In this document: in pieces, positions 50,631 through 58,094 of the stretch
Layout of the letters: every line of letters begins with the position of its first letter
Position numbering within the stretch: position 1 is the first letter of the stretch
Assembly (NCBI RefSeq): GCF_014495685.1
Contig: NZ_JACTVI010000006.1
Span: 124,001-188,000, forward strand
Direction: 5' to 3'
Length of the DNA stretch: 64,000 nt
Source of the DNA: Streptomyces sp. TRM68367
GTDB lineage: Bacteria > Actinomycetota > Actinomycetes > Streptomycetales > Streptomycetaceae
Notes under the pieces: model-generated
Told to the model about the DNA's origin: nothing
The model's database searches: none
Seen by the model: the letters and a program-made list of their open reading frames with translations, nothing else
Program-made: the position numbers and the translations under genes

Positions 50631-51575
50631 ATGATCAGATGCGCCTTGCTCACCCGGATGAGGGGCGTTGCCGCCCTCGTCGTCTCCGGGCTGATGTGCG
50701 CGGCCTTCGCCGTCCACCCCGGCACGGCGACAGCCGCCGACCATGCCTCCGCCCCGCGCGCGGCCGCTCAGCCCGTCGTCGGGCCGGCGCTGTTCGACGA
50801 CTTCAACTACACCGGCTACACGGATCCGCGGCTCACCCAGCGCGGCTGGACCCTGCGGTCCGGCCAGGGCGGGCCGGGCGTGCCCGGTGCCACGTGGAGG
50901 CCGCAGAACATCACCTTCGCCGCCGAGTCCGGCAACTCCGTCATGACGATGCGCTCCGGCACCAACGGCACGGCGACCGGCACCGAGCACACCGAGATCT
51001 ACCAGCAGCGCAAGTTCCTGCACGGCACCTATGCCGCGCGGGTCCGCTTCAGCGATGTGCCGGTCTACGGACCGGACGGCGACCGCATGGTGCAGACGTT
51101 CTTCACCATCTCGCCGCTGAACTACCCGATGGACCCGGCCTACAGCGAACTCGACTTCGAGTACCTGCCCAACGGCGGATGGGGCATCACCGGCAGTGCG
51201 CTGCTCGCCAGCTCCTGGGAGACGTACTCGGAGGACCCGCCCCAGGAGGAGCACGTCACCACACAGGAGCGCGCGAGTTTCGCCGGCTGGCACGACCTGG
51301 TCATCACGGTCGACAGCACGGCCATCACCTACTACATCGATGGCCGGCTCTTCGCCACGCACAACGAGCCGTACCTGCCCGAGTCGACGATGAGCATCCG
51401 CTTCAACCACTGGCTGATCAACCTGCTGGGGATCAACAGCCGGAAGACCCGTGCGTACGAGGAAAAGGTCGACTACGTGTACTTCGTCCAGGACCAGGTG
51501 CTCAGCCCGGCCGATGTACAGGCAGCCGTCGCCGACTACCGGTCGCGGGGAGTGACCTTCGAGGACACCGTCTGA
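50631..51575 (+). CDS. Secreted glycoside hydrolase family 16 beta-glucanase
   Basis: 314 residues. A signal peptide (RCALLTRMRGVAALVVSGLM, cleavage after ATAADHA) precedes a GH16 jelly-roll. The catalytic signature reads SELDFEYL (ExDxxE) near residue 170. GH16 enzymes cleave beta-1,3 or mixed beta-1,3/1,4-glucans and some galactans. The ATG has AGAAAGG about 11 nt upstream. It ends 24 nt from the convergent histidine-kinase gene of the GT2 operon, so an exopolysaccharide-trimming role alongside that synthase is possible. About 200 nt upstream hold no other gene. Confidence 0.88.
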   Translation: MIRCALLTRMRGVAALVVSGLMCAAFAVHPGTATAADHASAPRAAAQPVVGPALFDDFNYTGYTDPRLTQRGWTLRSGQGGPGVPGATWRPQNITFAAESGNSVMTMRSGTNGTATGTEHTEIYQQRKFLHGTYAARVRFSDVPVYGPDGDRMVQTFFTISPLNYPMDPAYSELDFEYLPNGGWGITGSALLASSWETYSEDPPQEEHVTTQERASFAGWHDLVITVDSTAITYYIDGRLFATHNEPYLPESTMSIRFNHWLINLLGINSRKTRAYEEKVDYVYFVQDQVLSPADVQAAVADYRSRGVTFEDTV

Positions 51576-51599: not shown

Positions 51600-53699
51600 T
51601 CACGGCGAGGCGGCTGCCCCGCTCGCGGCGGTGAGCGGCAACCGGGCGGTGAAGGTGGTGCCGCGGCCCTCCTCGGAGTCCACCTGCATCTCGCCGCCGT
51701 GGTTCGCCACGATCGTCAGGACGATGGTCAGCCCGAGACCGGTGCCCGGAATGGCCGCGGCGGTGGCGTTCGACGCACGGAAGAACCGCTGGAAGAGCTT
51801 CTCCTGCTCGGCCGGGGGGATGCCGATGCCGGTGTCGCTGACACTCAGGACCGCCTCGCCGTCCCGGGCCTCGGCCCGTACGGTGACCTTTCCGCCCCTC
51901 GGGGTGAACTTGACGGCATTGGACAGCAGGTTCATCAGGACCCGGTCGAGCTGGTCACTGTCGGCCTCCAGCATCAGGGGGCGGGAGGAGGGCCAGTGTG
52001 TCTCCAGGGTGACGGAGGCGGCCTCGGCGGCCGGCCGGAAGGTGTCGACCGCCGACGCCACAAGCCGGCACAGGTCGACCGGTTCCTTCCTCGAGCCGAA
52101 CGCCCCCGACTCGATGCGCGACAGGGTCAGCAGGTCCTCGATGAGCGCCCGCAGGCGGTTGGCGTTGCGGTCGACGACGTCCAGCATGTGCTGGTGCGGC
52201 GGGCTGAGTGGCCCGGTCTCCTCGTCCTTCAGCAACTCGATGTATCCCACGATGCTGGTCAGCGGGGTGCGCAGCTCGTGGGAGACGGTGGACAGGAAGT
52301 CGCTCTTGGCCTTGTCCAGAGCGCGCAGCTTCTCCACCAGGTGTGTCTCCTTCTTGTACAGCAGCGCGGTGTGCAGCGCGCGGCCGACGCCGGCGGCCAT
52401 GGACTCGGCGATTTCGATCTCCACCGGGAGCCAGGGGCGGTCCCGCCGGGTACGCGCCAGGAAGAGGGCACCGAGCGGTTCGTCACCGACGCCGAGCGGG
52501 ATGACGAGCACGCCCACCAGGCCCAGCGCCTCGGCCGCCGCCCGAGCGTCCGGCAGCAGGCCGCCCTCGCCGAAGGAGCCGGGCGCCCCGGGCAGCGGTG
52601 AACCCTCGGCCGGCGCGGCGGACAGATCGTTGCGGCACCATGCGGTTCCCCGCCGGTAGTGGTCGCGCACCACGTCGAGGGGAACGGGCGGAATCGGCTG
52701 CTCCTGCGCGGGGAGCAGCCCTCTGCCCGCACTCCAGGCACGCATGACGCAGACGAGCGGACTGTCCTGCTCGGTGAGGAGAACGAAGGCGTGATCGGCC
52801 TCCAGCCCCTCACCGATTCCGGCGCACGCCGTGTCGAGGACCTGCTCGACGTCGAGTTGCTCCCGGATCTGGACGCCGATGGCCCGTGCGGTGCGCGACA
52901 GTCTGGCGCGCTCCTGCTCGATCGCCCGCAGCCGGTCTCCCTCGTCGGCGAGCAGGTTGACCGAGCGCGCCACCGCCCTGATCTCCTCCGGTCCGTCCTC
53001 CTCGGCCCGCGCCGACTGCTCCCCTGCGGCGAGTCTGCCAAGGGTGCGAGCGGTGTTCCGCAGCGGCCGGGTCAGGGCACGGGTGGTGTGCACCGCCGCG
53101 AAGACGGCCAGGGCCCCACCGGCGGCCAGCGCGACCGCGGTGCCCGCGATGGCACTGTCGACGAGCCTGTGGGCGCGGTCCTCCAGACGCTGGCTCTCCT
53201 CGTTCAGCTGGTTGATCAGTCGCTGGTTGGAGGCCTCGAACGTCGCGAACAGCCGCGAGGCCTCCTCGGTCAGACGGACCCCCTGGCCGCTGCCGGGCGC
53301 CGCCTCGGCCTGCTGGTCGGCCACCCGCACATAGGCGCGCAGTTGCCGCTCCTGCGCGGCAAGGTTCTCCCGCGCTCCGGGAAAGGCGTGGCGCCGGGCC
53401 TCGGCGAGCGTCGCGAACGGCGTGTCGCGTGTGCGGAAGTAGACGTTCAGCTCTCCCGTGTCACCGGTGAGAAGATAGGAGCGCACGGCACGGTGCACAG
53501 CGGCTGCCTGGTCGTGCACGCGCGCGTTCTCGCGCAGGGTCGGCTGTGGTTCCATGGCCCTGTCGTGCAACCGGTTCGCCATCACGGCCGCGGACAGCCC
53601 GCCCGCCCCGACGAGCAGGAGCAGAGCGATCAGCAGTCCGAAGGCAATGGTGAGCCGGCGTGCCACGCAGACGCCAGGCCGCCCTGTGGTGATCCTCAT
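51600..53699 (-). CDS. Membrane sensor histidine kinase (HAMP-GAF-HisKA-HATPase)
   Basis: 699 residues. Two membrane segments (FGLLIALLLLVGAGGLSAAV at ~20-40 and [19 protein letters not shown] near 190) flank a ~145-residue extracytoplasmic helical sensor of CHASE3-like look. Then come HAMP (~205-255), a GAF domain (~270-440), HisKA with the phospho-acceptor His474 in FLSTVSHELRTPL, and a complete HATPase (NLLSNAVKFTPRGG, VSDTGIGIPP, GTGLGLTIV). Last gene of the operon, its ATG overlapping the GT2 stop by 4 nt. Its partners are probably the two stand-alone receivers at the operon's other end. Confidence 0.93.
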   Translation of the reverse strand: MRITTGRPGVCVARRLTIAFGLLIALLLLVGAGGLSAAVMANRLHDRAMEPQPTLRENARVHDQAAAVHRAVRSYLLTGDTGELNVYFRTRDTPFATLAEARRHAFPGARENLAAQERQLRAYVRVADQQAEAAPGSGQGVRLTEEASRLFATFEASNQRLINQLNEESQRLEDRAHRLVDSAIAGTAVALAAGGALAVFAAVHTTRALTRPLRNTARTLGRLAAGEQSARAEEDGPEEIRAVARSVNLLADEGDRLRAIEQERARLSRTARAIGVQIREQLDVEQVLDTACAGIGEGLEADHAFVLLTEQDSPLVCVMRAWSAGRGLLPAQEQPIPPVPLDVVRDHYRRGTAWCRNDLSAAPAEGSPLPGAPGSFGEGGLLPDARAAAEALGLVGVLVIPLGVGDEPLGALFLARTRRDRPWLPVEIEIAESMAAGVGRALHTALLYKKETHLVEKLRALDKAKSDFLSTVSHELRTPLTSIVGYIELLKDEETGPLSPPHQHMLDVVDRNANRLRALIEDLLTLSRIESGAFGSRKEPVDLCRLVASAVDTFRPAAEAASVTLETHWPSSRPLMLEADSDQLDRVLMNLLSNAVKFTPRGGKVTVRAEARDGEAVLSVSDTGIGIPPAEQEKLFQRFFRASNATAAAIPGTGLGLTIVLTIVANHGGEMQVDSEEGRGTTFTARLPLTAASGAAASP

Positions 53700-55183
53700 G
53701 GCCGGTCCTCCCGGCTCCGCTCGGGCGGGCCGAATCCAGTGCGGGTCATCGAACCCCACACCTGCGGGGCGCGGTGCAGCGCGTCCCACATACCGCGCAG
53801 CCGCCACCACGCCGTGAACTGGCGGTAGCCGATGTTCTCGACGACCACGCCGACGAGGGCACCCCACACGTCCCGCCACCGTGAGAAGCGGTGGTAGGCG
53901 TACTCCTCCACCGCGACCGACACCAGGCTGACGACCATCGCGTAGGCGTAGGCGGCGAGCAGGAAACGCCACATGAAGTCCACTTCGACGGCGCCGATCA
54001 GCGCGCCCAGGGGCACCAGCACGAGGCCGGCGAGTTCCACCAGTGGGGCCACCAGTTCGAAGAGCACGTAGAACGGGAGGGCCACCATCCCGATGCGGCC
54101 GTAGCGGGGGTTGCCGATCATGCGGCGGTGCTTGATCAGGATCTCGGTCAGACCACGGTGCCACCGACGCCGCTGGCGCCCCAGGACCCGGAGGCTGGAG
54201 GGTGCTTCGCTCCAGGCGATCGGCTCGGTGACGAAGACGACGCGGTAGTCGCTGTGGCGGCGGCCCTGCTCGCGCAGGTGCCGGTGGAGGCGGACGACGA
54301 GTTCGGCGTCCTCGCCGATGCATTCGGGGTCCATGCCCCCCGCCGCCACCACCGCGTCCCGGCGGAACAGGCCGAAGGCGCCGGCGATGATCAGCAGGCC
54401 GCCGACCTTGGACCATCCGGTACGGCCGAGGAAGAAGCCGCGCAGATACTCGATGACCTGGGCGCGTCCGAGCAGGTCCGCAGGGACGTGTGCCTCGACC
54501 ACGCGCCCGGCCTGGACGGTACAGCCGTTGGCGACGCCGACCACGCCACCGGTCGCCACCACCCGCAGCGGGTCGTCGCTGAACGGTTTCGCCACGGCCA
54601 GCAGGGACTGGGAGTCGAGGATGGAGTCGGCGTCCACCATGCACAGCAGCGGATAACGCGCCAGGTTGATCCCGACATTGAGCGCGTCGGCCTTGCCGCC
54701 GTTGCCCTTGCGTGCCACCACCAGGGGCACGGGGCCTCCCCTGGGCAGATGCAGCGAGGTGACGCTGCCCCGCACGGGGACGTCCTCGGGTACGACGTGA
54801 TCCACCTCGGCGAGGTGGAAGGCGTCGGCGAGGGCGTCGAGCGTGCCGTCGGTGGAGCCGTCGTCGACGACGATGATCTCGAACACCGGATAGTGCAGCA
54901 GCAGCATGGCCCGTACGGCCTCTGTGATGCCCGCCGCTTCGTTGTACGCGGGCATGATCACCGAGATGGGCGGGGTGAAGGGACTGCTGGAGGCGTCCTC
55001 GTAGCCGGCGAAGGGAGCCCGGCGCAGCCTCCTGACCAGCTCGGTGAGGGCGAAGAGGATCAGCACCAGATGGCCGGTGTTGATGGCCAGGAAGTAGAGG
55101 ATGACCGCGGTGTCGCACAGCGCGATCAGACCGTGCAACGTGCCCAGCAGTCCCTCCCACATCTCGACGCCCGCCGCGCTCAC
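53696..55183 (-). CDS. Membrane GT2 polysaccharide synthase (cellulose synthase/PgaC-like)
   Basis: 495 residues. N-terminal hydrophobic segment (TAVILYFLAINTGHLVLILF), a cytosolic GT-A domain, then about four C-terminal membrane segments. All processive-synthase motifs are present: VVDDGSTDGT (UDP binding), MVDADS (DxD), GEDAEL (catalytic TED-type) and RQRRRW (QxxRW). It would polymerise and export a beta-linked glycan; cellulose, PNAG, hyaluronan-like and beta-1,3-glucan products cannot be distinguished by eye. GTG start overlapping the HEAT gene stop by 4 nt. No PilZ domain is visible, so c-di-GMP control is not evident. Confidence 0.92.
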   Translation of the reverse strand: MSAAGVEMWEGLLGTLHGLIALCDTAVILYFLAINTGHLVLILFALTELVRRLRRAPFAGYEDASSSPFTPPISVIMPAYNEAAGITEAVRAMLLLHYPVFEIIVVDDGSTDGTLDALADAFHLAEVDHVVPEDVPVRGSVTSLHLPRGGPVPLVVARKGNGGKADALNVGINLARYPLLCMVDADSILDSQSLLAVAKPFSDDPLRVVATGGVVGVANGCTVQAGRVVEAHVPADLLGRAQVIEYLRGFFLGRTGWSKVGGLLIIAGAFGLFRRDAVVAAGGMDPECIGEDAELVVRLHRHLREQGRRHSDYRVVFVTEPIAWSEAPSSLRVLGRQRRRWHRGLTEILIKHRRMIGNPRYGRIGMVALPFYVLFELVAPLVELAGLVLVPLGALIGAVEVDFMWRFLLAAYAYAMVVSLVSVAVEEYAYHRFSRWRDVWGALVGVVVENIGYRQFTAWWRLRGMWDALHRAPQVWGSMTRTGFGPPERSREDRP

Positions 55184-56280
55184 AGAGCCACCTCCACCAG
55201 GACGTCGTGACGCACGCCTCCGACGGCCGCCTCCCCGAGGACTGCCCTGGCCTGGGCTGCGGCCGGTGCGTCCGAGCGGCCGTCCGCGGCCTCGCGGAGC
55301 GCCGCCTCACCCACGGGGCCGAGCCGCAGCAGCGCCCGCGCCGCCGTGCCCGCCACATGCGGGTCCGCGTCGCCGAGCAGCTCCGTCAGCGGGCCTGTCG
55401 CGGCGCCGGCCCCCAGACTGCCCAGGGCCCCGGCCGCCACGATGCGCAGGGCGCCCGGCTGACCGGTCCTGATGGCCGCCAGCAGCGGTTCCAGGCCGTC
55501 GGGCATGCCCAGCCTGCCCAGCGCGCGTGCCGCCCGGACCCGGACTTCGGTCGCCGGATCCTCGCGCAGCGCACGGACGACCTCGGTGGTGCGGGCAATC
55601 GCTCTGGTCACGCCGAGCACCTCGATGGCCACGGCCCTGACGAGAGGCGTCGGGTCCTGAAGGCCTGCCGCGACCCGGAGCTGCGCGGCAGGGCCGAGGG
55701 AGGCCAGCGCCGCGGTGACAACCTTGTACGGCACGGTACGCGGCCCGTGCAGGCTCCTCAGCAGATACGGTACGGCCATCGGATCACCCGTCCGTCCCAG
55801 CGCCCGTGTCGCGGCCAGCCGCACCTCCGGGTCACGGTCGTCGAGCAGACGGCACAGTGACGGGGCCGCCGGGCGGTGGCGGAGCTGACCGAGTACCTGT
55901 GCGGCGCGCCCCCGCCGGGCCGCGCTGCGGCTGCGCAGCTCGGCGACGGCCTCCGCGGGGGACCCCCGTCGCTCGCACAGAAGGACCAGCGCCGCGCGCG
56001 CTCTTCCGGAGACCTTGACCAGCATCGCCGTGACGGTCGGCTCCAGCGCCGCCCAGGTCCGCCTGTCGATCTGCGCCAGGCGGTCCAGCAGCTCGCTCTG
56101 CCCGTCCTCCTCGGCGCACAGGAGTTCCAGCAGCAGGCCGCGTACGGGCGCCGCAACCCGCTCGCGTCTGCGCCTCTGGTATGTACGCACACAGCGGATC
56201 GAGGCGGTCAGCAGGCTCAGCGCCAGCACGACGGCCAGCAGGTACAGCAGCGCATCGGTGACGAAGCCGAGAGGGATCAC
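55180..56280 (-). CDS. Membrane-anchored HEAT-repeat protein
   Basis: 366 residues. One N-terminal membrane helix (ALLYLLAVVLALSLLTASI, ~9-28) is followed by a basic stretch and about seven HEAT/PBS-type helical repeats (for example LLDDRDPEVRLAATRALGRT, LREDPATEVRVRAARALGRL, LLGDADPHVAGTAARALLRL). HEAT arrays are protein-binding scaffolds. Its place between receivers and synthase suggests it relays the phospho-signal to the GT2 enzyme at the membrane (inference). GTG start overlapping the previous stop by 4 nt. Confidence 0.88.
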   Translation of the reverse strand: MIPLGFVTDALLYLLAVVLALSLLTASIRCVRTYQRRRRERVAAPVRGLLLELLCAEEDGQSELLDRLAQIDRRTWAALEPTVTAMLVKVSGRARAALVLLCERRGSPAEAVAELRSRSAARRGRAAQVLGQLRHRPAAPSLCRLLDDRDPEVRLAATRALGRTGDPMAVPYLLRSLHGPRTVPYKVVTAALASLGPAAQLRVAAGLQDPTPLVRAVAIEVLGVTRAIARTTEVVRALREDPATEVRVRAARALGRLGMPDGLEPLLAAIRTGQPGALRIVAAGALGSLGAGAATGPLTELLGDADPHVAGTAARALLRLGPVGEAALREAADGRSDAPAAAQARAVLGEAAVGGVRHDVLVEVAL

Positions 56281-56651
56281 CGCTCGACCCGGGTGAGCAC
56301 TGCGTTGACCCGGCTGGACAGCTCGCGCGGGCTGAAGGGCTTGATGATGTAGTCGTCGGCGCCCGCCGCGAAGCCGAGTTCGACGTCTCCCTCCTGCGAC
56401 CGGGCCGTGATCAGGATGACGGCGAGCGACGCGGTGTCGTGGGCCGCACGCAGTTCCCGGCAGACGTCCAGTCCCGACATTCCCGGCATCCGTATGTCGA
56501 GGAGTGCGAGATCCAGCGGCTGCCCCCGCGCCACGTGCAGCGCGGCCAGGCCGTCCTCCACAGCCGTGACCTGGTGACCGCTCTGACTCAGCTTGAACGC
56601 CACGAGGCCGCGAATGTCGGCGTCGTCGTCGGCTATCAGGACACGCGCCAT
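56277..56651 (-). CDS. Single-domain response regulator (CheY-like), second of two
   Basis: 124 residues, a receiver only. Acidic pair DDD (8-10), phospho-acceptor Asp52 in LALLDIRMPGMSG, ITARS and IIKPFSPREL are all present, so it should be phosphorylatable. There is no output domain, so it must act by protein contact. AGGAGG precedes two adjacent ATGs (56654 and 56651); the second has better spacing and touches the upstream stop (TGATG). Confidence 0.92.
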   Translation of the reverse strand: MARVLIADDDADIRGLVAFKLSQSGHQVTAVEDGLAALHVARGQPLDLALLDIRMPGMSGLDVCRELRAAHDTASLAVILITARSQEGDVELGFAAGADDYIIKPFSPRELSSRVNAVLTRVER

Positions 56652-57037
56652 CATTCCTCCTGCGAGACGGCGTTCCGGTAGGAGGCGAGGAGCCGTGCCA
56701 CCGCCGCCTGCCGGAACGGTTTGGCCAGCAGTTCGTCCGTCGCCAGCTCCACCAGTTCGTCCGAGTCGAGCACGGAGGAGACCACGAGGTGGCACCCCTT
56801 CGTCCGCTCGTCCGCCCGCAGCCTCCGGATGACTTCCCGCCCGTCGATCCCGGGCAGCAGCACATCGATGATCGCCATGTCCGGGGGGTCGGCGAACGCC
56901 CGGTCCAGGCCCTCCTCACCCGAGTCCGTCACCGTCACGCGGCAGTCCAGACCCCTGAGATACCGCTCCAGCAGCGCGCTCACGTCCCGGTCGTCCTCGA
57001 TGACCAGTACGTGAACGGGTACGTGCGGAGAGTCCAT
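56651..57037 (-). CDS. Single-domain response regulator, first gene of the GT2 operon
   Basis: 128 residues, receiver only. IEDDRD (acidic pair), Asp58 in AIIDVLLPGIDG, SSVLD where T/S is expected, and AKPFRQ are visible. It differs strongly from the second receiver, so the pair is not a recent duplication. The ATG at 57037 has AGG 6 nt upstream; another ATG at 57043 is in frame. It heads the five-gene operon, just below a 13-bp palindrome. Confidence 0.9.
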   Translation of the reverse strand: MDSPHVPVHVLVIEDDRDVSALLERYLRGLDCRVTVTDSGEEGLDRAFADPPDMAIIDVLLPGIDGREVIRRLRADERTKGCHLVVSSVLDSDELVELATDELLAKPFRQAAVARLLASYRNAVSQEE

Positions 57038-57058: not shown

Positions 57059-57071
57059 CTTTGTGACAAAG
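57059..57071. promoter_or_regulatory. Palindrome and repeated -10 boxes upstream of the GT2 operon
   Basis: CTTTGT-G-ACAAAG is a perfect 13-bp palindrome. On the minus strand a TACTTT box lies on each side of it (CCTACTTT twice), so it could be an operator between alternative -10 elements. Confidence 0.5.
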
Positions 57072-57236
57072 TAGGATTCATGCGCACCATCCGCCACAGG
57101 AGGCTGCCCCCGCACAGCGTGGCGCACCGGCCTCCGGGCCGGCGAATCACCATGTGAGGATCACCCAGGCGCCGTCGGTGCGCGGGTCGCGTCCGAGGTC
57201 ACACGGGCGGGAGCCCAGGCGGGCGGGGCGAGCGGG

Positions 57237-58094
57237 TCAACAGGACTGTTCCTTGCGGGGCCGGCGCGGTGGCAGCCACCGCTCGGCGTAGTCCACCGCG
57301 TCCGCCACCGGGAACAGCCGTACGTCGGCCGCACCGACCTTCCCTCGTACGACGACGGGACGGTCCCGTTCGAAGTCGCGGCCCAGTTCCTCGAACCCGT
57401 CCGAGCTGATCGACACCTCGGTCACTGTCTCCCAGCCTTCGGGTCCCGGACGCCCCACCGCGACGAGCGGGGACGGTATCCGGTACTCGGCCAGGTGGAA
57501 GCTGGTGCAGGCGTCGTATCCGGCGCCCAGCAGGAGCACCCGGGCGCCGAGCCGCTCCAGCTTCGCCAGCGGGCTGTGCTCGCCGAGCCGGCAGTCGGGC
57601 GCGTGTTCCTCGGTCACCTCACGCGCGCGGGGACCGACGGCCGCGAACGACGTCTGCGGATGGGTGCTGCGCAGGGCGCCGGGCCAGGTGCGCACGGTCT
57701 CCGGGATGACGCCGACCCCGCGTGTGGGAGTGAGCCGGGGGTCGTAGACGGGCATGGTGGCCCGGATCGTCTCCCACCACTCCTGGGGCACGGGCGGATA
57801 CTGCCACCAGGCCGGGTCCGAGAGGTCGGCGGACTGGGCGGGAACCACGAGCGTGCCGTCCGGGCCGAGCGCGTCGAGCAGTCCTTGGACGACCGCGACG
57901 GGGCCGCCGCACACCCAGCCGAGGGAGCTGAGGGAGGAGTGTGCGAGGAGGGTCTCGCCGGGGCGGACGCCCAGCGTGCGCAGGTCTTCGGTCAGCGTGG
58001 CGCGGGTGACGAGTGGGCCGGTCGGAGGGGGTGTGGGCATGGTTTGGGAGTGTTCCGGAGGATCCCTGGGCGTGCCACCCATTTGATCGGTCAA
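57237..58094 (-). CDS. AAC(3)-family aminoglycoside N-acetyltransferase-like protein
   Basis: 285 residues of the AAC(3)/YokD fold. LAHSSLSSLGWVCGGPVAVV (acetyl-CoA region), GTLVVPAQSADLSDPAWWQ, GVGVIPETVRTWPGALRSTH and LLLGAGYDACTSFHLAEY are characteristic. Family members acetylate the 3-amino group of aminoglycosides; many Streptomyces homologues have unproven substrates. The start is uncertain: TTG at 58094 has GGGAA upstream; ATGs at 58082 and 58040 are alternatives. Divergent from sufR; a minus-strand -10 TAATCT lies at 58118-58113. Confidence 0.85.
   Translation of the reverse strand: MTDQMGGTPRDPPEHSQTMPTPPPTGPLVTRATLTEDLRTLGVRPGETLLAHSSLSSLGWVCGGPVAVVQGLLDALGPDGTLVVPAQSADLSDPAWWQYPPVPQEWWETIRATMPVYDPRLTPTRGVGVIPETVRTWPGALRSTHPQTSFAAVGPRAREVTEEHAPDCRLGEHSPLAKLERLGARVLLLGAGYDACTSFHLAEYRIPSPLVAVGRPGPEGWETVTEVSISSDGFEELGRDFERDRPVVVRGKVGAADVRLFPVADAVDYAERWLPPRRPRKEQSC

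Follow-up and report, generated by a model that had tools for sequence, protein, structure and literature searches.

A HEAT repeat protein paired with a processive-type glycosyltransferase in bacteria and haloarchaea: a candidate receiver-controlled polysaccharide synthase

We analyzed a window of 64,000 nucleotides from the soil bacterium Streptomyces sp. TRM68367 (contig NZ_JACTVI010000006.1, positions 124,001 to 188,000), in which a single operon encodes two receivers (RR1 and RR2), a HEAT repeat protein (HEAT), a family 2 glycosyltransferase (GT2) and a histidine kinase (HK). The deepest conserved unit is the HEAT-GT2 pair, and the pairing of the two genes across genomes is well supported. 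Based on the gene layout, the intact motifs, the membrane anchor, the wide co-conservation and one fusion of HEAT and GT2 in a single frame, we suggest that the two proteins probably constitute a two-subunit membrane polysaccharide synthase, which would be switched post-translationally by a stand-alone receiver acting via HEAT.

The five-gene operon

The five open reading frames are located on the minus strand in the order RR1 (57037-56651, 128 aa), RR2 (56651-56277, 124 aa), HEAT (56280-55180, 366 aa, GTG start), GT2 (55183-53696, 495 aa, GTG start) and HK (53699-51600, 699 aa). Consecutive genes overlap by 4 nt at the RR2/HEAT (GTGA), HEAT/GT2 (GTGA) and GT2/HK (ATGA) junctions, and by 1 nt at the RR1/RR2 junction (TGATG), where a start of RR2 one codon upstream would make it 4 nt. 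The reading of the frames and junctions bears out the layout with 1-4-nt overlaps that an earlier note had described for this DNA. A promoter-like block, TGTGGCG...CTACTTTG, is found 5' of RR1 on the minus strand (57067..57098); it is a variant copy, which is missed by the strict pattern.

Analysis with Pfam identified Response_reg in both receivers (58 and 97.9 bits) and nothing else over the cut-off. RR1 is a stand-alone receiver with phospho-acceptor D58, which is invariant in an alignment of 14 relatives, and RR2 is a stand-alone PhoB-like receiver in which T82 and K104 are kept and the phospho-acceptor D52 is invariant among 17 relatives. HK contains HAMP, GAF, HisKA and HATPase_c domains, with CHASE3 below the cut-off; visual inspection suggested a weak CHASE3-like sensor flanked by two hydrophobic segments. 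The HisKA-HATPase_c kinase and the phospho-Asp receivers are those of a classical two-component system, but the output domain of such a system, DNA-binding or other, is absent, RR1 and RR2 being receiver only. As the earlier note had stated, none of the five proteins has a DNA-binding output or a PilZ domain scoring above the Pfam cut-off, and the operon contains no GGDEF or EAL gene.

The HEAT protein matched HEAT_2 (100 bits), and its structure model (mean pLDDT 93.7) displayed an N-terminal transmembrane helix continuing into a HEAT superhelix, in agreement with the membrane anchor previously claimed. The superhelix should face the cytoplasm. A fold search with the model mostly retrieved general HEAT/ARM proteins, such as importin and designed alphaRep.

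Conservation of the HEAT-GT2 pair and its receiver

Loci were collected with GT2 alone, yielding 38 actinobacterial loci, and surveys of the phylum and of plasmids brought the number examined to 110. HEAT was located directly upstream of GT2 on the same strand in all 103 informative loci (36/36, 55/55 and 12/12 by set), a count that leaves out seven loci cut by contig ends (L009, L036, L149, L161, L166, L167 and L168) and takes in two in which HEAT is only partly present (L033 and L129). Six of the 103 HEAT calls were missed by our own profile and are based on Pfam or on record annotation. Besides actinobacteria, the pairing spans haloarchaea, Deinococcus, proteobacteria, Bacteroidota and Bacillota, the evidence outside Actinobacteriota consisting of 12 plasmid loci from 14 records; the other two of these records, both from Mesorhizobium, have GT2 and HEAT under the match. 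In one genome (G524), HEAT and GT2 are found within one open frame.

The tight packing of the genes is also shared. A 4-nt overlap was observed for RR2/HEAT in 30 of 34 loci and for HEAT/GT2 in 27 of 35 loci of the first set, and the packing is similar on the haloarchaeal plasmids, with a small intervening ORF in one of these. The gene order in Haloarcula is RR-HEAT-GT2-GAF-HK.

Three explanations of the linkage were considered and rejected. The PF13646 cut-off is exceeded at one place only in the Streptomyces sp. TRM68367 genome, namely at the window HEAT. Of 26 PgaC-like GT2 places in the Streptomyces genome 15 were taken as loci, and our own profiles identified no HEAT or separate RR gene within approximately 1.5 kb of the 14 other than the window locus. 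Together with the 103/103 count, these results rule out chance adjacency of HEAT and GT2. A conserved chromosomal neighborhood is also rejected, since ten flanking proteins scanned at six loci fall into a variety of families (including subtilase, Rho, MFS, T2SSF and pro-kumamolisin), which suggests that it is the cassette rather than its surroundings that is conserved. Finally, HEAT does not accompany just any membrane GT2: by profile, it is missing within 3.5 kb on either side of three distant plasmid GT2s, which have 29-30% identity to the Mesorhizobium protein and frames of about 1,100 codons.

The proteins upstream of GT2 mostly share the membrane anchor, an N-terminal transmembrane segment being present in 80 of the 84 proteins scored, a set that differs slightly from the 84 loci of the receiver count below. 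With a cut-off of E<1e-3, a profile of the membrane-proximal cap matched 40 of the 85 proteins upstream of GT2 but none of those on plasmids, and did not reach the remote HEAT proteins. Shared ancestry of the latter is thus putative outside the repeats.

Of 84 loci, 69 have a nearby receiver, in which the phospho-Asp is kept in 68 cases of the 69; the Emticicia receiver has Asn in its place. These counts cover loci among L003-L040, L096-L107 and L108-L147 with more than 2 kb upstream, with L149-L168 outside, and receivers were accepted within 3.5 kb upstream, or within 4.5 kb when encoded on the opposite strand. The remaining 15 loci have no receiver within this reach, suggesting that HEAT-GT2 either works without a receiver or uses a distant one there. 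In most of the receiver-bearing loci, the receiver is a short separate frame. A receiver was also observed within a 765-codon frame in L153.

RR2 is the best conserved of the three core proteins, with a mean column identity of 76% as compared to 65% for GT2 and 49% for HEAT (17 rows each), and its position before HEAT is kept while the neighbors vary. RR1 adjoins RR2 in 19 of the 38 actinobacterial loci, in one of which (L005) its frame looks broken; three other loci are cut by contig ends. HK lies 3' of GT2 in the same orientation in 26 of the 38 loci, is convergent in four and precedes HEAT in two. RR1 and HK are thus variable across loci; RR1 is an optional partner and RR2 is the receiver conserved with HEAT-GT2. 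The five genes can therefore be rejected as a single conserved unit, and of the co-occurrence anticipated in the earlier note only that of RR2, HEAT and GT2 is strong.

Proposed receiver control and its alternatives

According to our model, HEAT and GT2 would assemble as a two-subunit synthase of the inner membrane, in which GT2 would polymerize a nucleotide sugar and export the chain. The long single transmembrane helix would anchor HEAT beside GT2, such that the cytoplasmic superhelix is held at the catalytic face. In one of its phosphorylation states, RR2 is predicted to dock on HEAT, or on the HEAT-GT2 interface, thereby turning synthesis up or down, and the co-transcribed membrane kinase with its CHASE3-like, HAMP and GAF sensor would set the phosphorylation of RR2. 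RR1, where present, may act as a further receiver, either competing for phosphate or supplying an additional input. In this scheme the receiver switch, with phosphotransfer from HK to RR2, binding of RR2 to HEAT and either sign of the effect, is the presumed part. Post-translational control via HEAT predicts that RR2, HEAT and GT2 are co-conserved in differing neighborhoods, as observed, and is consistent with the missing DNA-binding output; this part of the earlier proposal is supported, whereas the five-gene unit is not.

The receivers could instead be phosphate shuttles or sinks for a distant regulator, with transcription setting the amount of synthase and the operon merely co-expressing signal and target. 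The single-domain receiver MrrA of Caulobacter acts on holdfast via hfiA transcription, as described in PMC9980756. Hpt and PAS-kinase genes, which equally suit the receiver switch, are added in two alphaproteobacterial loci, HTH genes are found some kilobases upstream at two of the haloarchaeal loci, and the loci with no nearby receiver also agree with a shuttle. HEAT and GT2 distances correlate with r 0.964 (partial 0.78 given RR2; 33 loci), which speaks for the two-subunit synthase. A shuttle is favored by the weak partial correlations of RR2 (0.24 with HEAT and 0.38 with GT2). Among the 24 loci with a kinase, the correlations of the kinase core are no lower than those of RR2 (r 0.96-0.98), and the distance numbers therefore indicate co-inheritance, not contact. 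The distance test left out L017, where the HEAT frame looks broken, and loci missing one of the three genes; the locus tree was a quick one with long branches, in which divergent receivers were pooled with same-strand ones. Against a shuttle role stand the strong conservation of RR2, its constant place before HEAT and the lack of a DNA-binding regulator among the five proteins scanned, and we consider such a role unlikely.

Most known cases of direct control over polymer synthases involve c-di-GMP. Here, the receiver might tune a diguanylate cyclase, with GT2 or HEAT binding the dinucleotide at an unrecognized site. A GGDEF protein whose C-terminus is a receiver adjoins HEAT in L135, L137, L138 and L139, and a similar protein with three receivers precedes HEAT in L131, suggesting that c-di-GMP may be an output at these five actinobacterial loci. 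In addition, HfsJ, a glycosyltransferase of another system, binds c-di-GMP (PMC9980756). However, GT2 has no PilZ domain, the window operon has no GGDEF or EAL gene and most receivers are short separate frames, which makes general control by c-di-GMP quite improbable.

Returning to the receiver switch, we tentatively suggest that RR-HEAT-GT2 represents a widespread class of bacterial and haloarchaeal synthases that are set directly by an aspartyl-phosphate receiver on a membrane HEAT protein, as a phosphorelay counterpart to the c-di-GMP/PilZ control of cellulose-type synthases. CheY and DivK are single-domain receivers without an output domain. RR1 and RR2 resemble these and MrrA in this respect, whereas the receiver partner here would be a membrane-bound HEAT protein belonging to a polysaccharide synthase. 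No description of an RR-HEAT-GT2 system was found in the open-access literature searched, including passages of PMC6599016, PMC12419801, PMC3826837, PMC8594841, PMC10434189, PMC7159879 and PMC11450739, and the earlier suggestion of an undescribed system holds for that literature. The cassette of three genes is compact and would represent an apparently undescribed way of switching surface-polymer production directly, in bacteria and in salt-loving archaea. If a receiver does switch the synthase via HEAT, surface-polymer output in both domains could promptly track a kinase with no need for a second messenger or for transcription, and the genes annotated as "HEAT repeat domain-containing protein" next to "glycosyltransferase family 2" would be given a function.

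The glycosyltransferase and related synthases

GT2 matched Glyco_tranf_2_3 (79.6 bits) and contains the DG, DAD, GED and QRRRW motifs; its motif set is complete, in line with the earlier note. The DxD, ED and QxxRW motifs, which together with the membrane location characterize synthase-dependent processive GT2 enzymes, are invariant in 17 aligned sequences. Since the structure model was poor (mean pLDDT 57.8), the topology was taken from the sequence, in which the GT2 domain is flanked by one membrane segment on its N-terminal side and by about three on its C-terminal side. Judged by its sequence, GT2 is a membrane family 2 glycosyltransferase of the processive type; processivity, export and the identity of the polymer are predicted.

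Alternatively, GT2 might be non-processive and make a glycolipid or a cell-wall decoration, with HEAT as an assembly or localization scaffold that has no switching role. The membrane segments are few, the structure model failed and there is no known polymer product. The invariant motifs argue against this, as do the top NCBIfam equivalog, which is the PNAG synthase PgaC/IcaA, the matches of the GT2 profile to cellulose and hyaluronan synthases, and the YaiO outer-membrane barrel genes that accompany three Gram-negative copies and fit polymer export. We thus give a non-processive enzyme only a slim chance.

The likeness to the poly-beta-1,6-GlcNAc synthase PgaC/IcaA includes the membrane GT2 and the same motifs, but with 113 bits the window GT2 is far below the TIGR03937 equivalog cut-off of 422 and was rejected as a member; the operon also adds a HEAT subunit and receivers. 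Streptomyces MatAB makes PNAG (PMC5972031). As compared to both systems, a deacetylase is absent among the five genes of the window operon. The bacterial cellulose synthase BcsA is a processive GT2 that is regulated through PilZ, its activity being under allosteric control. The window GT2 is likewise of the processive type but has no C-terminal PilZ, which excludes it from the c-di-GMP-regulated BcsA type; the best stretch common to the GT2 profile and BcsA structures is profile positions 256-380. The GT2 of E. coli yaiP-yaiO is distantly related (26% over 226 residues) and has a YaiO gene at its side, which is also seen at some HEAT-GT2 loci, but HEAT and receiver genes are absent from the 12-kb stretch there.

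A GH16-like hydrolase with an ELDFE motif and, by eye, a signal-like N-terminus is encoded on the plus strand (50631..51575), convergent with the operon. It is found at the same place in seven of 15 Streptomyces loci and is a possible accessory of the operon.

Operon layout and protein anatomy in the window

In the 9.67 Mb host genome, five minus-strand ORFs follow one another in the window with overlaps of 1-4 nt. They encode the stand-alone receivers RR1 (57037-56651) and RR2 (56651-56277), each with a receiver domain and no other domain over the Pfam cut-off, a protein with HEAT repeats (HEAT, 56280-55180), a family 2 glycosyltransferase with GT2 domains (GT2, 55183-53696) and a histidine kinase (HK, 53699-51600) with HAMP, GAF, HisKA and HATPase_c domains and a sub-threshold CHASE3 sensor match. 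No PilZ or DNA-binding domain passed the Pfam cut-off in the five proteins. ORF coordinates and Pfam matches confirm the layout described in the earlier note, including its lack of a PilZ or DNA-binding output.

GT2 carries the processive-type motifs DG (residues 108-109), DAD (184-186), ED (291-292) and QRxRW (337-341), all invariant across an alignment of 17 relatives. Its profile matched cellulose and hyaluronan synthase structures weakly; its structure model was poor and left unused. The HEAT model (mean pLDDT 93.7) predicts an N-terminal single helix of 52 residues containing the transmembrane segment (model residues 7-58, numbered with three extra residues), followed by a continuous HEAT solenoid. 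The sequence RRRRER comes after the transmembrane segment, which predicts a cytoplasmic position for the solenoid. RR2 retains D9/D10, D52, T82 and K104 and resembles the PhoB receiver without its DNA-binding half; RR1 retains D15, D58 and K106.

Directly upstream of the operon lies an Antibiotic_NAT gene (aminoglycoside 3-N-acetyltransferase family, 57237-58094, minus strand, 293 bits), and a GH16-like glycosidase with an ELDFE motif (50631-51575, plus strand) is convergent to HK. The glycosidase, which may trim the polymer, occupies the same position in 7 of the 15 Streptomyces loci described below; at one locus (L007) a relative of the Antibiotic_NAT protein is located beyond it. A 32-nt promoter-like block, TGTGGYGRRA...CTANTTTG, begins 53-77 nt ahead of RR1 in five Streptomyces loci, the sole matches to the strict pattern on both strands of 1.46 Mb of fetched loci. 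Within 57059-57098 (minus strand), the window copy is a variant that escapes this pattern and overlaps the inverted repeat CTTTGTCACAAAG.

Distribution and linkage of HEAT and GT2

A search with GT2 alone against one genome per species (84,980 species) returned 38 loci, all actinobacterial: 15 from Streptomyces, 2 from Streptacidiphilus, 1 from Kitasatospora, 9 from Micromonosporaceae, 5 from Lentzea, 2 from Nocardioides and 4 from MAGs. Within Streptomyces the protein is rare, and among the matches listed 9/295 genomes, the window's included, reached at least 51% identity; the next best E-value was 2.6e-37 and further matches showed 33-42% identity. A sample of the actinobacterial phylum contained close relatives (E<=1e-80) in 58/396 genomes and 43/236 genera, at 61 places, of which all except the window itself (60) were opened. 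Of 72,556 plasmid records, 14 matched at E<=1e-30 and 12 were opened (Haloarcula, Salinirubellus, Halosolutus, Deinococcus, Mesorhizobium, Erythrobacter, Devosia, Emticicia, Bacteroides, Paenibacillus, Planococcus and Legionella), giving 110 loci for the three surveys combined.

HEAT was found directly upstream of GT2 on the same strand in 36/36, 55/55 and 12/12 loci of the respective surveys, counting loci with upstream DNA at least partly present. Six of these calls fall outside the HEAT profile and rest on Pfam matches below (L142, L143, L103) or over (L106) the cut-off, or on the record's own annotation (L097, L147). Overlaps of 4 nt were observed between RR2 and HEAT in 30/34 loci and between HEAT and GT2 in 27/35 loci of the first set. 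In one genome (G524), HEAT and GT2 share a single 935-residue frame with an Arg-rich linker, although GT2 translation may begin at a GTG on its boundary.

The PF13646 cut-off was passed at one place in the host genome, the window HEAT. Of 26 PgaC-like GT2 places in this genome, 15 were taken as loci for a neighbour check, and of these the window GT2 alone had HEAT nearby, within about 1.5 kb. Three more distant plasmid GT2s lacked HEAT by profile within 3.5 kb, and the genes flanking the cassette vary from lineage to lineage. Another host ORF (L082, C208:247911-248684) encodes a PgaC-like GT2 of another group and contains a degenerate receiver domain (residues 63-163, 24 bits, below cut-off).

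Receivers and kinases across loci

Receivers were sought at 84 loci with >2 kb upstream, reaching 3.5 kb upstream and 4.5 kb on the other strand. One was in reach of HEAT-GT2 at 69 loci, with the phospho-acceptor Asp intact in 68. Deinococcus, both Bacillota, Bacteroides and Legionella are among the 15 loci that lack one. Mapped onto a tree built from 90 GT2 rows, the receiver label requires 8 changes across the 84 rows that carry it. In the first set a receiver was present in 34/35 informative loci, the exception being Actinoplanes L027. At L135, L137, L138 and L139 a GGDEF protein ends in the receiver that adjoins HEAT, and at L131 the GGDEF protein carries three receivers; two of these five GGDEF proteins have Hpt. 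All five proteins are encoded directly upstream of HEAT-GT2, which suggests a c-di-GMP link in those lineages.

The five-gene set of the earlier note is not the conserved unit: in the first set RR1 adjoins RR2 in 19/38 loci and a same-strand kinase follows GT2 in 26/38. The kinase is convergent in four Dactylosporangium loci and ahead of HEAT in two Actinoplanes loci; in Actinoplanes L032 it sits between RR2 and HEAT. The kinase and the second receiver differ among lineages. What is conserved is RR-HEAT-GT2, built around a HEAT-GT2 core, and it extends far beyond Streptomyces.

Proposed mechanism and known systems

The most likely chain is that the membrane kinase would set RR2 phosphorylation, RR2 would contact the cytoplasmic HEAT superhelix, and HEAT, anchored beside GT2, would alter polymer synthesis. 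The earlier note's reading of post-translational control is partly right: the co-conservation of RR-HEAT-GT2 and the lack of any other operon output fit it, but the five-gene unit does not hold. Of these steps, the pairing of HEAT with GT2 has the strongest support, from adjacency throughout, the fused frame and matched rates: across 33 loci, HEAT and GT2 distances correlate at r 0.964, with a partial correlation of 0.78 after accounting for RR2. Where a kinase is present (24 loci), every pair, kinase included, correlates at 0.96-0.98. The putative receiver step draws on co-conservation, on phosphorylation residues that are intact and on the absence of another output in the operon. The partial correlations of RR2 are weaker (0.24 with HEAT, 0.38 with GT2; 33 loci), as would be the case for a receiver that partners only transiently and is replaced at times; they also leave room for the receivers as phosphate sinks or shuttles feeding a distant regulator.

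By its sequence, the cassette may work in the manner of regulated synthase-dependent polysaccharide systems. Membership of the PgaC/IcaA and BcsA types failed: PgaC/IcaA, the top NCBIfam equivalog, scored 113 bits where the cut-off is 422, and the PilZ domain that defines BcsA is absent from the window GT2. In Streptomyces, the polymers attributed to CslA and MatAB (PMC5972031) appear to be made by other enzymes. Searches of open-access full texts turned up no account of a receiver-HEAT-GT2 system. E. coli YaiP is a distant GT2 relative (26% over 226 residues); HEAT and receiver are both absent from the yaiP stretch shown, and a YaiO gene lies nearby. YaiO outer-membrane barrel genes also adjoin HEAT-GT2 in the Gram-negative loci L100, L103 and L147, where the barrel might serve as the pore that exports the polymer.
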